From Candidatus Lucifugimonas marina (GTDB taxonomy: Bacteria > Chloroflexota > Dehalococcoidia > Lucifugimonadales > Lucifugimonadaceae): a stretch of DNA of 64,000 nucleotides. The notes under the pieces are model-generated. The model was not told the origin of the DNA and did not search any database. It was given only the letters and a program-made list of their open reading frames with translations. Each line of letters opens with the position of its first letter. The first letter of the stretch is position 1. Below are positions 46,687 to 57,837 of the stretch, piece after piece. A program made the translations under genes and the position numbers. The stretch spans positions 1 through 64,000 of the forward strand of contig CP046147.1 of the NCBI GenBank assembly GCA_029593915.1, read 5' to 3'.

Positions 46687-46792
46687 CCCCTTCTCCCAGC
46701 GGGAGAAGGTTGGGATGAGGGAGATTTGTTCGATCATGGCGAAAATGATCGTTCCTCCCTCACCTAAATCCTCTCCCGCTGGGAGAGGACTT
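46687..46792. repeat. Inverted repeat of the CTCTCCC-type intergenic class
   Basis: Left arm CCCCTTCTCCCAGCGGGAGA... (46687-46722) and right arm CTCCCTCACC...CCCGCTGGGAGAGG (46755-46792) pair with each other, and each contains its own CTCCC-AGC-GGGAG hairpin. The class is widespread in bacteria. Confidence 0.8.
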
Positions 46793-47120: not shown

Positions 47121-48350
47121 TTACCCATCCTGCCCGTCAGGCACGTTGGGAGCGAAGAAGTGGCTTACTTTTTGGCCAGGGTCTTTGAATCCGGTGGCTT
47201 CCCACTTGTAACCTTCGGTTGTTTCTTGAATGTTCACGTCGGAACGATTGAAGACGTCGTCTTTTAGTCGAGTGCCAAGTCCGGGGCCTTCTGGCGCAAG
47301 CAAGTAGCCGTCTTTGATCACGATGTTTGGCTCGATGAACTTGTCGTACCAGCCTTTGTAGTAGGCGCGGTTTGTTTCCTGAATCATCACGTTCGGGGCG
47401 TTCATCGATATGTGGGCGCAGGCAAATACGTTGATCGGACCCGTCCAGTCGTGGGGTGCAATCGGCGTTTGATACGTATCGGCCATCGTTGCGATTTTCT
47501 TTGTTTCCGTGATGCCGCCAGTCCAAATCAGATCGGGCATCACGATTTCTGCCGAGCCGTTCTCGATGTACTCCCTGAATTCAAACCGAGTCATAAGCCG
47601 CTCGGCTGCGCAGATCGGAGCTTTCGTTTCCTGCGCAAGTTTTAGATGAGTTTCGGCGTTCACTGGATGAATGATCTCCTCTTGCCAGAGCATGTCGTAC
47701 TCGTCCATCGCCTGTGTGATGCGAATTGCGGGAGCCAGCGCCCATTGTCCGCCGCCATCGTGAGCGATTTCGATCTGGTCCCCGAGTGCTTTTCGCTGTT
47801 TGGCTAGCGGGGCGAGTCCCTCTTTGATCTGCTTTGCCGAGACGAAATTTCCGCCCGATTCTGCGGCGTACGGAGCCATGTAGTACGCCTTGACTGCCGT
47901 GATTCCTTCGTCGATCAGGCTTTGGAGGAAGCCGACAGGGTCCTTTTGCTCGAACTCATTGTCTTGATACTCGCCGTAACTGCCGATCGTGTTGTAGATG
48001 CGGATTTTGTCGCGGGTTTTGCCGCCGAGAAGGTTATAGATCGGCTGATCGAGTGCCTGCCCTACGATGTCCCAGAGAGCGATGTCGATTGCTGATAGCG
48101 CTCTCAGTTCTGCTCCCGAATAAGTGAAAATTCCCGCTAGTTTGAAGAGTTCGTCCCAGATGCCTTCGCGGTCCATTGGGTCGCGACCGATTAGTGTGGG
48201 TCCGAATAGCTCGTGAACTACTGCGGCGACTGATTTAGGCAGGTACCACGTTTCGCCAAGTCCGATTTCACCCGAATCGGTGTGAATGCGAACCCAGCAC
48301 ATCTGCCAGAACTCGTCGACGTAAACAGTTTCAACTTTGGTTATTTGCAT
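47121..48350 (-). CDS. Enolase-superfamily sugar-acid dehydratase (mandelate racemase-like, galactonate-dehydratase type)
   Basis: 409 residues. Capping domain then TIM barrel with KAYYMAPY at the second strand, metal ligands Asp in EIAHDGG, Glu in LWQEEI and Glu in AAERLMTR, and general-base His in APHDWTGP. This ligand set matches acid-sugar dehydratases of the mandelate racemase subgroup. Expected product is a 2-keto-3-deoxy sugar acid, the substrate of the aldolase at 49985. The start ATG lies 10 bases from the tandem structured element F1/F2 (48361-48545). Confidence 0.88.
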   Translation of the reverse strand: MQITKVETVYVDEFWQMCWVRIHTDSGEIGLGETWYLPKSVAAVVHELFGPTLIGRDPMDREGIWDELFKLAGIFTYSGAELRALSAIDIALWDIVGQALDQPIYNLLGGKTRDKIRIYNTIGSYGEYQDNEFEQKDPVGFLQSLIDEGITAVKAYYMAPYAAESGGNFVSAKQIKEGLAPLAKQRKALGDQIEIAHDGGGQWALAPAIRITQAMDEYDMLWQEEIIHPVNAETHLKLAQETKAPICAAERLMTRFEFREYIENGSAEIVMPDLIWTGGITETKKIATMADTYQTPIAPHDWTGPINVFACAHISMNAPNVMIQETNRAYYKGWYDKFIEPNIVIKDGYLLAPEGPGLGTRLKDDVFNRSDVNIQETTEGYKWEATGFKDPGQKVSHFFAPNVPDGQDG

Positions 48351-48360
48351 TTTTCGTTAT

Positions 48361-48435
48361 GGCTCCGGGCGTCATCGGATGACTTGGTCGCGCGTCGCAG
48401 TCTACCCTCCCTCAATCCCTCCCGAAGGAGGGAAG
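48361..48435 (-). promoter_or_regulatory. Structured leader element F1 upstream of dehydratase gene
   Basis: Read along the mRNA (minus strand): a CCTCC/GGAGG hairpin with CGAA-type loop (48416-48433), a conserved linker GGTAGACTGCGACGCGCG, a 5-bp hairpin GTCAT-CCG-ATGAC (48371-48383), then CGCCCGGAGC. GGAGC (complement of 48362-48366) is 11-12 bases before the ATG and could be the ribosome-binding site. The hairpin shows compensatory changes compared with copies F3 and F4. Confidence 0.6.
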
Positions 48436-48468
48436 TTAGGACAGGATGGCTCCGGGCGTGGGGGTTAA

Positions 48469-48545
48469 GGTCCGGGCGTCATGGGATGACTTGGGACCTC
48501 GTCGCAGTCTACCCAACCCCTAACCCCTTCCCGAAGGAAGGGGGA
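48469..48545 (-). promoter_or_regulatory. Structured leader element F2 (second tandem copy)
   Basis: Second copy of the F element: hairpin CCCCTTCC-CGAA-GGAAGGGG (48524-48543), linker GGGTAGACTGCGACGAGG, and hairpin GTCAT-CCC-ATGAC (48478-48490). A partial third copy (GGCTCCGGGCGT) is at 48448-48459. Distance and order relative to the gene mirror the arrangement at 55019-55175. Confidence 0.55.
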
Positions 48546-48609: not shown

Positions 48610-48741
48610 TTGTCATTCTGAACTTGATTCAGAATAATTTCCGACTGGATGTATCGGTCTTGCGTGAGGGTGTTCGTGGAAGGCTAGGTCGTGCGGTTTC
48701 AGCAGTTGGACGCCGATTCTGAATCAAGTTCAGAATGACAA
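48610..48741. repeat. Family B inverted-repeat element (132 nt)
   Basis: Arms 48610-48635 and 48715-48741 (GATTCTGAATCAAGTTCAGAA...). With F1, F2 and the terminator at 48768 it accounts for the 532-base gap 48351-48882. Confidence 0.92.
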
Positions 48742-53821: not shown

Positions 53822-55006
53822 TTAAAACCCCGGACCTCGACCGGGTTCCCAAACGTGGGCTCGGGCTACGTCTTCGTCTAGGTCGACTCCCCAGCCGGGT
53901 TTGGTTGGGATTTGTAGTTCGCCGCCGGTGTAATCGAGAGGTCCGCCAGTGATTTCGTCTTTCCACGGAACATCGTCGATGTCGGCTTCCATGATTCGAA
54001 CGTTCGGCACGGTTGCGCACAGGTTGATCGAATGCATCGTCGAAAGGTGTGAGTAGTAGTTATGCGGAGCGATGTTTAGCTCGTAACTTTCGGCAAGCAT
54101 TGCGATATCTCGTGAACGGGCGAATCCGTTCCAAGGTACGTCGATCATCACGTTGTCCATCGAGCGGTTGTCGAAGTAGGGTCGGTATTCACGAATGCCG
54201 AACAGGTTTTCGCCTGAAGTGATCGGGACCGACGTTCCGGCTTTAACCTCGGCTAGTCCTTCTGGCTCGTACATGTCGACTTCGACCCACATCGTGTTGA
54301 ACTGCTCCATCACTTCACAGATCTGTCGAGCTGCTAGTGGCTTGAAGTGGAAATTGAGGTCGATAGCTATTTGAACTTCGCCCTTCGTACCCTCTTCGAA
54401 CGCACCAATGTACTTTTCGATGTGCTCAAGCGTTTGCCATGTGACGTTCTGGTCGGTCGCACCGGTTCCAAACCCGCCGTCGTAGTTCCGAGCCGGAGTA
54501 CCCGGGTAGTTGATGTTGGTTTTGAGCGCCTTAAAACCTTTTTCGCGTACTTCGGCACCGAGTTCAGTCACCGCTTCGAACGAATCCATTGGCGGAACTC
54601 CGATAAGTTCGTGCCGCCGAACTCGAGAAGTTCCACAGTGCGACCAGTAGACCTGCTGACTCTGCCTCGTTGGTCCTCCGAACAATGAGTAGACCGGAAC
54701 GCCAAGCGCTTTGCCCTTGATGTCCCACAGTGCCAGTTCGATTCCGGCGATCGCCTTCGCTGCGATTCCGCCTGTCGATTGGCGGGCAAGGCGGTACATG
54801 TCCCAGTATCGCTTTTCGACTGCCATCGGGTCTTGCCCTTTGAGAATCGGTAGGAAGTCGGTTACTGCCCCGACGATTCCGTACGGATTTCGACCGTCCG
54901 ACATCTCGCCGTAGCCGGTTATTCCTTCGTCGGTGCGAACGGCAGCGTATATCCAGGGTCGCCATCCGGCGTCGACTACGAATGTTTCGATAGCTGTGAT
55001 TTTCAT
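53822..55006 (-). CDS. Enolase-superfamily dehydratase (mandelate racemase-like)
   Basis: 394 residues. Strand-two motif LKTNINYP, metal ligands Asp in IAIDLNFHF, Glu in MWVEVDMYEP and Glu in TSGENLFG, and general-base His in APHNYYSHL. All catalytic positions of the mandelate-racemase subgroup are filled. Substrate unknown but presumably an acid sugar. The ATG at 55006 is 12 bases from structured element F3, as in the dehydratase gene at 47121-48350, although the two proteins are only distantly similar. Confidence 0.88.
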   Translation of the reverse strand: MKITAIETFVVDAGWRPWIYAAVRTDEGITGYGEMSDGRNPYGIVGAVTDFLPILKGQDPMAVEKRYWDMYRLARQSTGGIAAKAIAGIELALWDIKGKALGVPVYSLFGGPTRQSQQVYWSHCGTSRVRRHELIGVPPMDSFEAVTELGAEVREKGFKALKTNINYPGTPARNYDGGFGTGATDQNVTWQTLEHIEKYIGAFEEGTKGEVQIAIDLNFHFKPLAARQICEVMEQFNTMWVEVDMYEPEGLAEVKAGTSVPITSGENLFGIREYRPYFDNRSMDNVMIDVPWNGFARSRDIAMLAESYELNIAPHNYYSHLSTMHSINLCATVPNVRIMEADIDDVPWKDEITGGPLDYTGGELQIPTKPGWGVDLDEDVARAHVWEPGRGPGF

Positions 55007-55018
55007 GCTTTTCGTTTT

Positions 55019-55089
55019 GCTCCGGGCGTCGTCGGACGACTTGGTCGCTCGTCGCAGTCTCCCCTTTGGCTCCCCCTATCTGGGGAGGA
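55019..55089 (-). promoter_or_regulatory. Structured leader element F3 upstream of dehydratase gene
   Basis: Along the mRNA: hairpin CTCCCC-AGATAG-GGGGAG (55070-55087), linker AGACTGCGACGAGCGACC, hairpin GTCGT-CCG-ACGAC (55028-55040) and CGCCCGGAGC, then AAAACGAAAAGC and the ATG. The fourth base pair of the hairpin is G-C where F1 has A-T, a compensatory change. The stretch up to the start codon (CCCGGAGC..AACGAAAA) also matches F1. Confidence 0.6.
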
Positions 55090-55095
55090 CTCGTT

Positions 55096-55175
55096 GGCTT
55101 CGGGCGTCACTAGCGTGACTTGGTCGCGCGTCGCAATCTACCCATCCCCTAACCCCTATCCGCAGGAAGGAGGAT
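55096..55175 (-). promoter_or_regulatory. Structured leader element F4 (second tandem copy)
   Basis: Linker GGGTAGATTGCGACGCGCG and hairpin GTCAC-GCTA-GTGAC (55106-55119), in which the fifth pair is C-G where F1 has T-A, a second compensatory change. The distal CCTCC/GGAGG hairpin is only partly kept. Confidence 0.55.
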
Positions 55176-56667: not shown

Positions 56668-57837
56668 CTAGTTCGACCCCCAATCGCTAATATCACTCGG
56701 TTCAAAGTGCATACCGAATCCAGGTTCGTTTGTAGGTCGAACCTGTCCGTTCACAGGAACAGCGGTTCCCGGAATGCGAACTGTTTCTTCCAGAGGAACT
56801 CCCGGATCGGTACCGAGCCAGTACTCGGTCATCGGAGATTCTGTTGCTGCCATTGCAAAATGTTGCCCGAACGGATTATTCGCTCCGCCGTGCGGAATAG
56901 TCGCCATTCCAGCCATCTCGGCGATAGTGTGAGCTTTCCAAGCCTCAGTCATGCCGCCGCCCCAGGTGAAATCGGGTTGCAAAATATCGACTGCACGCTT
57001 TTCGACGAGATCCAAAAAGGCGTGTCGACCGTGATGGTCTTATCCGGTCGCAATTGCCACCCATGGAGCGGAACGGCGGAGATGGGCGAGTCCTTCTGTG
57101 TCGGTCGGAACTAGCGGTTCCTCGAACCAGCGCAGGTTGTAGGGTCGAAGCTCTTCAAGCAGCCGCAGTGCGAATTCGACGTTGTACGACATCACCGGGT
57201 TGATCATCAGATCGCGCTCAACACCTACTTTTTCGCGAGCTTGTGCAACGTGAGCCACAACAGCCTTGATCCCCGCATCACCTTCCGAGTAGTGAGAAGG
57301 ATTCGTAATTTTGAATTTTGTGAATCCGAGTTCCTGCGCCCAGTCGAGATCATCTCCAGTTGCGTAGCAAGTGATCGATTCTCGAACGGGTCCGCCGAGT
57401 AGTGCGTACACGGGCTGCCCAATAATCTTGCCTTTGAGATCCCACAGTGCCAGATCAACTCCGCCCATCGCAGTCGAAGCAGTTCCTGAAGACCCAAAAC
57501 GGTGCGAAATGCGAAGAACAAGATCGTTCAGGTGCTCGATAGCCATGCAATTGCGACCCTCGAGCATCGGCGCAATGACCGTGTTTACGAACGCCGCCAC
57601 TGGCTCGCCGAACGCAGCCTGTCCTAGACCCCAAGTCCCATCTTCTGCGGTTACTTGAACCCAAACTGCGCCTAGTCCGCCTCCCGGCATGCTACCCGGT
57701 AAACCTGAAAACTCTGAATACATGTTGATCGGCATCGCCCGTTTTGCCGACTTATTCCACGTATCTCGTCGAGGTGTAGTTGGATTGGCAGGCTTGGGCA
57801 GCTTAACTTGAACTGCTTTTATGGACTTAATCTTCAA
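56668..57837 (-). pseudogene. L-rhamnonate-dehydratase-like paralogue interrupted by TAA
   Basis: Two segments in one frame (57837-57043 and 57039-56668) align end to end with the next gene: KFKITNPSHY, LMINPVMSYN, RWFEEPLVPTD, WVAIATG, then TAA at 57042-57040, then DHHGRHAFLDL and ILQPDFTWGGG. The intact paralogue reads ATGEHHYGR here, so the stop replaces the third metal-ligand Glu; GAA to TAA is one base change. Everything after the stop is still well conserved, so the event is recent or an error. TTG start. It is co-directional and nearly contiguous with the intact copy. Confidence 0.82.

Follow-up and report, generated by a model that had tools for sequence, protein, structure and literature searches.

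Small repeats such as Correia/NEMIS, ERIC, BOX and RUP can alter the expression of adjacent genes or donate expression signals to them, and Chi and KOPS provide the comparison for polar signals selected for a role in replication or segregation. The REP/REPIN/BIME sequences with their TnpA-REP (RAYT) are the system closest to the element described here: as set out in PMC6006769 and PMC3116915, they are short palindromes, imperfect and with an internal loop, which occur in many extragenic copies and form clade-specific families that are sometimes arranged in arrays. IS200/IS605 elements have been documented to transpose as single strands at the replication fork, and a replication-strand bias is expected of them and of their non-autonomous derivatives from single-strand transposition on the lagging strand (PMC6006769).

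The repeat that we describe shares these traits with both systems, the replication-strand bias included, and differs from each. Unlike REP/RAYT, it occurs without a Y1 transposase in 19 genomes and without a GT[AG]G foot, its units lie mostly in direct tandem rather than in inverted pairs, and it joins a strong replication orientation to a GGAG set against start codons. Unlike IS200/IS605, it comes with no TnpA gene that we could find, and no IS body or guide/target tetranucleotide was identified. It resembles Correia/NEMIS, ERIC, BOX and RUP in that it may donate a signal, but the few junctions examined showed neither terminal inverted repeats nor target duplications. It is probably a genus-specific, REP-like, non-autonomous repeat that spread as a single strand in step with replication and was partly co-opted as a portable leader. 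A structured repeat with near-perfect replication orientation and no identifiable transposase is unusual, and it may be absent from print, as far as a limited literature search can tell: we found no published link of REP, leading strand and orientation bias, and the main text of PMC10444878 and of PMC6946804 holds no word beginning with "repeat".

Four copies of the element in the window

The window, the whole 64-kb stretch that was analysed, belongs to contig CP046147.1, the source genome (3,094,136 bp; 3.09 Mb). The pattern TCCGGGCGTC-N4..14-GACTTGG occurs in 30 copies in this genome, as against 0 for a reversed-pattern control, and from these 30 copies we built a covariance model, R1. An earlier reading of the window, made from its sequence only (the sequence-only reading), had noticed four copies of one element; all four were located as core units:

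48351-48409, plus strand: core unit 1, type A (R1 match, 75.1 bits), CGTTA end toward the ATG of the gene at 47121-48350
48363-48366, minus strand: GGAG (CTCC on the plus strand), candidate Shine-Dalgarno sequence of the gene at 47121-48350
48404-48436, plus strand: polypyrimidine hairpin 3' of unit 1 (hairpin scan and sub-threshold match to Rfam whalefall-1)
48446-48459, plus strand: ATGGCTCCGGGCGT, exact direct repeat of 48359-48372 (repeat family D3), compared with genome G013
48458-48516, plus strand: core unit 2, type B (GGTCC/GGGACC; R1 match, 69 bits)
48517-48545, plus strand: polypyrimidine hairpin 3' of unit 2 (hairpin scan)
55008-55066, plus strand: core unit 3, type A (R1 match, 74.6 bits), CGTT end toward the ATG of the gene at 53822-55006
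55020-55023, minus strand: GGAG, candidate Shine-Dalgarno sequence of the gene at 53822-55006
55070-55090, plus strand: second hairpin 3' of unit 3 (hairpin scan)
55086-55145, plus strand: core unit 4, type A variant (GCTTC; R1 match, 56 bits)
55140-55175, plus strand: degenerate stretch resembling the polypyrimidine hairpin, 3' of unit 4 (by eye; absent from the hairpin-scan output)
47121-48350, minus strand: enolase-superfamily gene 1 (MR_MLE; Pfam PF13378, 1.4e-50)
53822-55006, minus strand: enolase-superfamily gene 2 (MR_MLE; Pfam PF13378, 1.1e-38)

Read on the minus strand, each copy has the linker, a GTC..GAC hairpin and CCCGRASC (CCCGGAGC or a near variant), in that order. The conserved linker is GAYTGCGACG, followed by CGCG in units 1 and 4 only. 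Four copies are far beyond chance, since the linker and hairpin patterns have an expectation of 0 in shuffled windows. The unit, of about 50 bp, is built of CGTTA, an outer arm, the GTC..GAC hairpin, TTGG, the other outer arm and GCAGTCT; its end carries GTTA, and the core sites of integron attC read RYYYAAC / GTTRRRY. Short arrays are frequent, with the polypyrimidine hairpin at the closing end. The second hairpin that had been ascribed to three of the four copies was found at 48416, 48524 and 55070, the fourth being only degenerate. The two proximal copies do adjoin the ATG of two enolase-superfamily genes, as the earlier reading had it: the CGTTA end of unit 1, which as a leader reads on the minus strand, is 4 nt from the start codon of gene 1, and the CGTT end of unit 3 is 5 nt from that of gene 2.

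Other repeats are also present. By eye, a different palindromic repeat (TTCTGAATCAAGTTCAGAATGACA and its complement) stands twice beside the element, at 48611-48640 and 48714-48741, and two more pyrimidine/purine hairpins (CCCTTCTCCC.. and TCCTCTCCC..) lie at 46688-46790, where the core unit is absent. Some polypyrimidine hairpins are preceded by a CTTCGACTGGCTCAGCA-like module (L075 4740-4790 and 5390-5440).

Secondary structure

The repeat has a conserved secondary structure, as expected of a leader RNA. In a first alignment of 30 copies (A1), built without reference to structure, seven pairs showed standard pairing in 97.6% of cells, and both sides had changed in 29 cells, as against 8.2 in shuffles. 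The coordinated changes which the sequence-only reading saw in a few hairpin pairs are real and general: in a set of 120 copies (76 sources), two-sided changes affect 8 of 10 pairs and 132 cells, vs 38.2 cells in shuffled controls and no more than 22 in slid ones, with a covariation score of 0.312 (0.134 shuffled, ≤0.103 slid), in an alignment that leans toward 7 of the 10 tested pairs because these were already in R1. The outer helix covaries too: GGTCC/GGGACC, GTGCC/GGGCAC and GGCCC/GGGGCC are fully complementary, and the commonest type, GCTCC/GGTCGC (45/120), pairs only in part. The folding energy of single copies is ordinary (z of -1.5 to +0.8 in five folds), so the claim of structure rests on covariation and not on stability.

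Folding on the gene-sense strand, considered on account of G.U pairs in early copies, was not upheld: the 120 copies hold 15 G.T vs 10 A.C on the forward strand, counts which do not identify the folding strand.

Rfam gave no match within the window at the gathering score; in seven other loci, nothing but rRNA and tRNA reached E≤0.01. Below threshold, the polypyrimidine hairpin alone resembles whalefall-1 RNA (RF01762; 23.1 bits, gathering score 37), the core unit giving no match to it, and one lncRNA family appears at E 1.3.

A dispersed family limited to one genus

R1 returned 71 matches in the source genome at E≤0.1. At E≤0.01 it matched 15 of 19 genomes of the genus, source included, and none of 21 relatives beyond it; G017 and G018 have one match each, and the draft genomes G002, G003, G006 and G016 have none. 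Across a class-wide sample (n=343, E≤1e-4), matches were confined to the source genome and one congener (0/341 for the others, of which 20 were among those listed, all non-genus, and 321 were not); this search used stricter filters and recovered just 16 matches in the source genome, so weak relatives may be missed. Carriage by phage was considered and rejected: 12 IMG/VR contigs match a 17-letter pattern, which is about chance by a rough estimate, and R1 matches four of them in part and none at full length.

Copies are spread very unevenly, with many at 584-796 kb and few elsewhere. The 582-798 kb region of G000 (L075-L088) is repeat-rich, lies at or near an rRNA operon and is strongly skewed in GC (0.12 to 0.25), against 0.00 to 0.09 in the remaining plus-arc samples up to 1.33 Mb; the skew at 2.66-2.76 Mb is strong as well, at -0.14 to -0.18. 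In strain JH545, regions of anomalous GC skew overlap predicted islands, according to PMC10444878.

Orientation relative to replication

All 53 matches with E≤1.7e-5 are consistent in strand by arc (39 plus, 14 minus): the plus strand carries those between 48 kb and 1.644 Mb as well as at 3.058 Mb, the minus strand those between 1.741 and 2.804 Mb, which places the strand switches at 1.64-1.74 and 2.80-3.06 Mb. With dnaA at 547, the sampled GC skew becomes positive between 3.00 and 3.03 Mb, and the 3.058 Mb copy therefore belongs to the plus arc. Near the other switch, samples from 1.50-1.74 Mb have a slightly negative skew and those from 1.80 and 2.00 Mb a slightly positive one; as GC skew does not fix the terminus independently, the plus copy found at 1.644 Mb may break the pattern. 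Among 18 weaker matches in the source genome, those at 2799542 (+), 328996 (-) and perhaps 3026541 (-) are out of line, and a structure scan added a type C unit at 665725 (-) as a further exception.

The same polarity is seen in other species. On contigs of G009 and G013 with at least two loci, 59 of 66 loci are on the majority strand of their contig, leaving 7 exceptions; 20,000 random draws gave a mean of 46.7 and a maximum of 57. Of 20 contigs sampled, 17 have a majority strand that agrees with the sign of their GC skew (11/11 in G009, 6/9 in G013). Orientation tracks replication, not transcription, given that copies adjoin the starts of head-on genes as well as tRNAs and the stops of co-directional genes.

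At 1643949 (+) and 2754946 (-) of G000, one combination of gene end, terminator-like hairpin and repeat is found mirrored on the two arcs, and both copies fit the polarity.

Placement at gene boundaries

The element shows a preference for gene boundaries at one of its ends, and these include starts as well as stops. Placement was counted for 140 arrays from three genomes with a simple ad hoc codon-usage gene caller; by these rough calls, 135 of the 140 lie outside genes. Of the 125 arrays whose left neighbour was usable, 51 have their CGTTA end no more than 25 nt away from the end of a called coding sequence (a start codon in 34, a stop codon in 17), as compared with 16 of 129 for the far end, past the polypyrimidine hairpin, which was located by a rough pattern. 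A lack of preference for gene 5' ends, which the sequence-only reading had named as a refuting result, is thus half borne out: a boundary preference exists at one end, but start codons share it with stop codons. In the source genome, 11 arrays are at a start codon and 9 at a stop codon (each ≤25 nt), with 29 others; two start sites beyond the caller were added by hand and checked with Pfam (141354, enolase; 710361, flavoprotein), and the remaining entries of the permissive list, short ORFs with mostly TTG starts, were excluded as probably spurious.

Copies abut the start codons of head-on genes and the stop codons of co-directional ones, and at least two of the co-directional genes (586501, an ORF, and 2139199) take their stop codon, TAG, from the start of the element. 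Others lie directly 3' of tRNA-Met, tRNA-Ser and 5S genes or, by eye, behind terminator-like hairpins.

The sequence of type A contains GGAG. At start sites of the three genomes, GGAG is found at -24 to -5 in 26 of 33 cases vs 18 of 104 background genes (p 2e-10), a count in which one of the 34 sites (L080) was not placeable, two starts were manually reset to an internal ATG and L289 was scored as GGAG despite its odd position. Compared with other units of the family, those at start sites carry GGAG only modestly more often (23/34 vs 61/130, p=0.035). Where the proximal unit is without GGAG, a stub GGAG is present closer to the ATG at two sites (gene 1 of G013 and source 3057960) and no stub at three (source 2803870, L147:117-174 of G013 and L156 of G009), a mixed outcome for selection on GGAG. 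The 3' end of 16S was not found within the genome stretch examined for it. Use of this GGAG in translation initiation is plausible.

Variation at orthologous genes

Presence of the repeat at orthologous genes is polymorphic between species. Among the 15 gene 1 orthologues, eight carry the element at that start codon (G014 with just 18.6 bits) and R1 matches none of the remaining seven; hairpin letters, and sometimes the A or B type, vary between species at one gene. At gene 2, R1 matches the start in four of 15 (source, G014, G009 and G004) and in none of the other 11, among which G012 and G001 have apparent degenerate traces by eye and G013 lacks the element beside a 95% identical protein. 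Named relatives of gene 1 come from SAR202, Dehalococcoidia and Chloroflexi bins. Six distant SAR202 bins gave no R1 match: three (L225-L227) have, by eye, 3 nt from the upstream stop to the ATG of gene 1, a distance of ~530 bp in the window, and the other three have a different gene 1 context.

The gene 1 regions of the source genome and G013 differ by ~330 bp, and unit 1 with its hairpin is enclosed by the two copies of ATGGCTCCGGGCGT (48359-48372 and 48446-48459), which suggests that short homologies may have let the region grow. Beside an intact 5S lies a degenerate second copy (L075 3059-3260), which has a lone unit inside it and is 46 bp longer there, with no clear target duplication.

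Proposed origin and spread of the repeat

One-way orientation with respect to the fork can arise by spread or by retention. The simplest route would be copying or insertion as folded single-stranded DNA at the fork, with the repeat settling at gene edges. At a head-on start codon, the CGTTA end would then form the end of the 5' leader and supply a GGAG ribosome-binding site; at a co-directional gene, the repeat would come to lie just behind the stop codon, sometimes supplying the stop itself (CGTTAG). The transcription-independent polarity, the hairpin and the placement at gene edges fit with spread as a folded single strand at the fork. The extra 46 bp in the second 5S copy and the 3-nt gap ahead of gene 1 in three distant bins speak for insertion. 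The family itself, its covarying structure, its orientation, its boundary placement and its polymorphism are observed; we infer the replication-coupled single-strand spread, the transcription of the unit as a leader and the use of GGAG in translation. Against this reading, searches for Y1 transposases and reverse transcriptases brought up no candidate mobilising enzyme, one reverse transcriptase in G017 aside, the polarity has exceptions, and start positions shared between species may point to a function instead of to mobility.

A more specific version of this reading, that the copies are remnants of REP/RAYT or IS200/IS605 elements whose Y1 transposase has been lost, seems to us possible but doubtful. 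It would account for the internal-loop hairpin, the many extragenic copies and the replication-linked orientation, which is expected of single-strand transposition (PMC6006769), but PF01797 is absent from all 19 genus genomes (drafts for the most part, 79-96% complete; control rings 5/14) and the consensus is without the GT[AG]G foot, which is absent on both strands from the invariant TCCGGGCGTC before the loop and GACTTGG after it in 30 copies. Neighbouring units are also mostly in direct order, save at two places in G013 (L247 and L249) with inverted neighbours within 0.4 kb. A retro-element origin (group II intron or retron) was rejected, as reverse transcriptase (PF00078) is present in only 1 of 19 genus genomes, G017, which has one weak repeat match.

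Association with enolase-superfamily genes

The source genome has 78 PF13378 matches. PMC10444878 gives 80 enolase-superfamily genes, ~2.8% of CDS, for cultivated SAR202 strains, and PMC6946804 describes the expansion of this paralogue family in SAR202 group I. Enolase genes make up 7 of 13 start sites in the source genome vs ~2.8% expected (p 2e-8; by the gene caller alone, 6/11 within 25 nt, p 2e-7), 9 of 11 in G013 and 4 of 12 in G009 (phmmer to the window's four enolases), counts that are not independent because the sites are often orthologous across genomes.

This enrichment is unexplained by neutral insertion. It would be expected if the element were in truth a leader RNA that regulates enolase-superfamily and other catabolic genes in cis, its other copies being decayed or displaced descendants, and certain genes do carry it in more than one species: PNP_UDP_1 (MTAP-like) and several enolases in G013 as in the source genome, and rhaM and NIPSNAP in G009 (the source copy of the latter at 55 nt). 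By eye, the gene 2 copy also lies between the ATG and a TAAACT-like stretch common to the orthologues, which may be a promoter. We nonetheless consider a dedicated leader RNA unlikely. With arc limits of our choosing, 50 of the 78 enolase genes are head-on, and start-position copies occur at 7 of these 50 and at 0 of 28 co-directional ones (p=0.045); the element is at the starts of head-on enolases only, because its polarity demands it. Copies behind stop codons, tRNAs and 5S, the replication orientation, the unlike hairpin letters and types between species at one gene and the many orthologues without an R1 match argue in the same direction. The sequence-only reading had offered either a cis-regulatory RNA of sugar-acid genes or a mobile repeat that donates a ribosome-binding site. 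The second fits better and is favoured, as the family is dispersed, genus-limited and polymorphic and brings GGAG to start codons; of the first, what endures is the enolase enrichment and the shared genes, which keep a riboregulator alive. A replication or segregation signal made polar through selection rather than by its mode of spread is very improbable: it would give the near-perfect polarity on both arcs and in other species, but not the crowding at 584-796 kb, the lack of a match in 4 of 19 genus genomes (drafts) and in 21 of 21 non-genus relatives, or a long structured unit with two covarying helices.

If the repeat did spread as we favour, its replication orientation may document, in nature, how single strands are inserted at forks, and its link to the expanded SAR202 enolase family suggests a way in which duplicated catabolic genes can receive ready-made leaders. 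The fuller proposal, that a transposase-free polarised repeat propagated as single-stranded DNA at forks is now a portable leader which wires SAR202 enolase paralogues and other catabolic genes post-transcriptionally, is a bold one with, in our estimate, a small chance of being right.

Another enolase-superfamily match in the window, at 56701-57837, is broken by one in-frame TAA and is a possible pseudogene.
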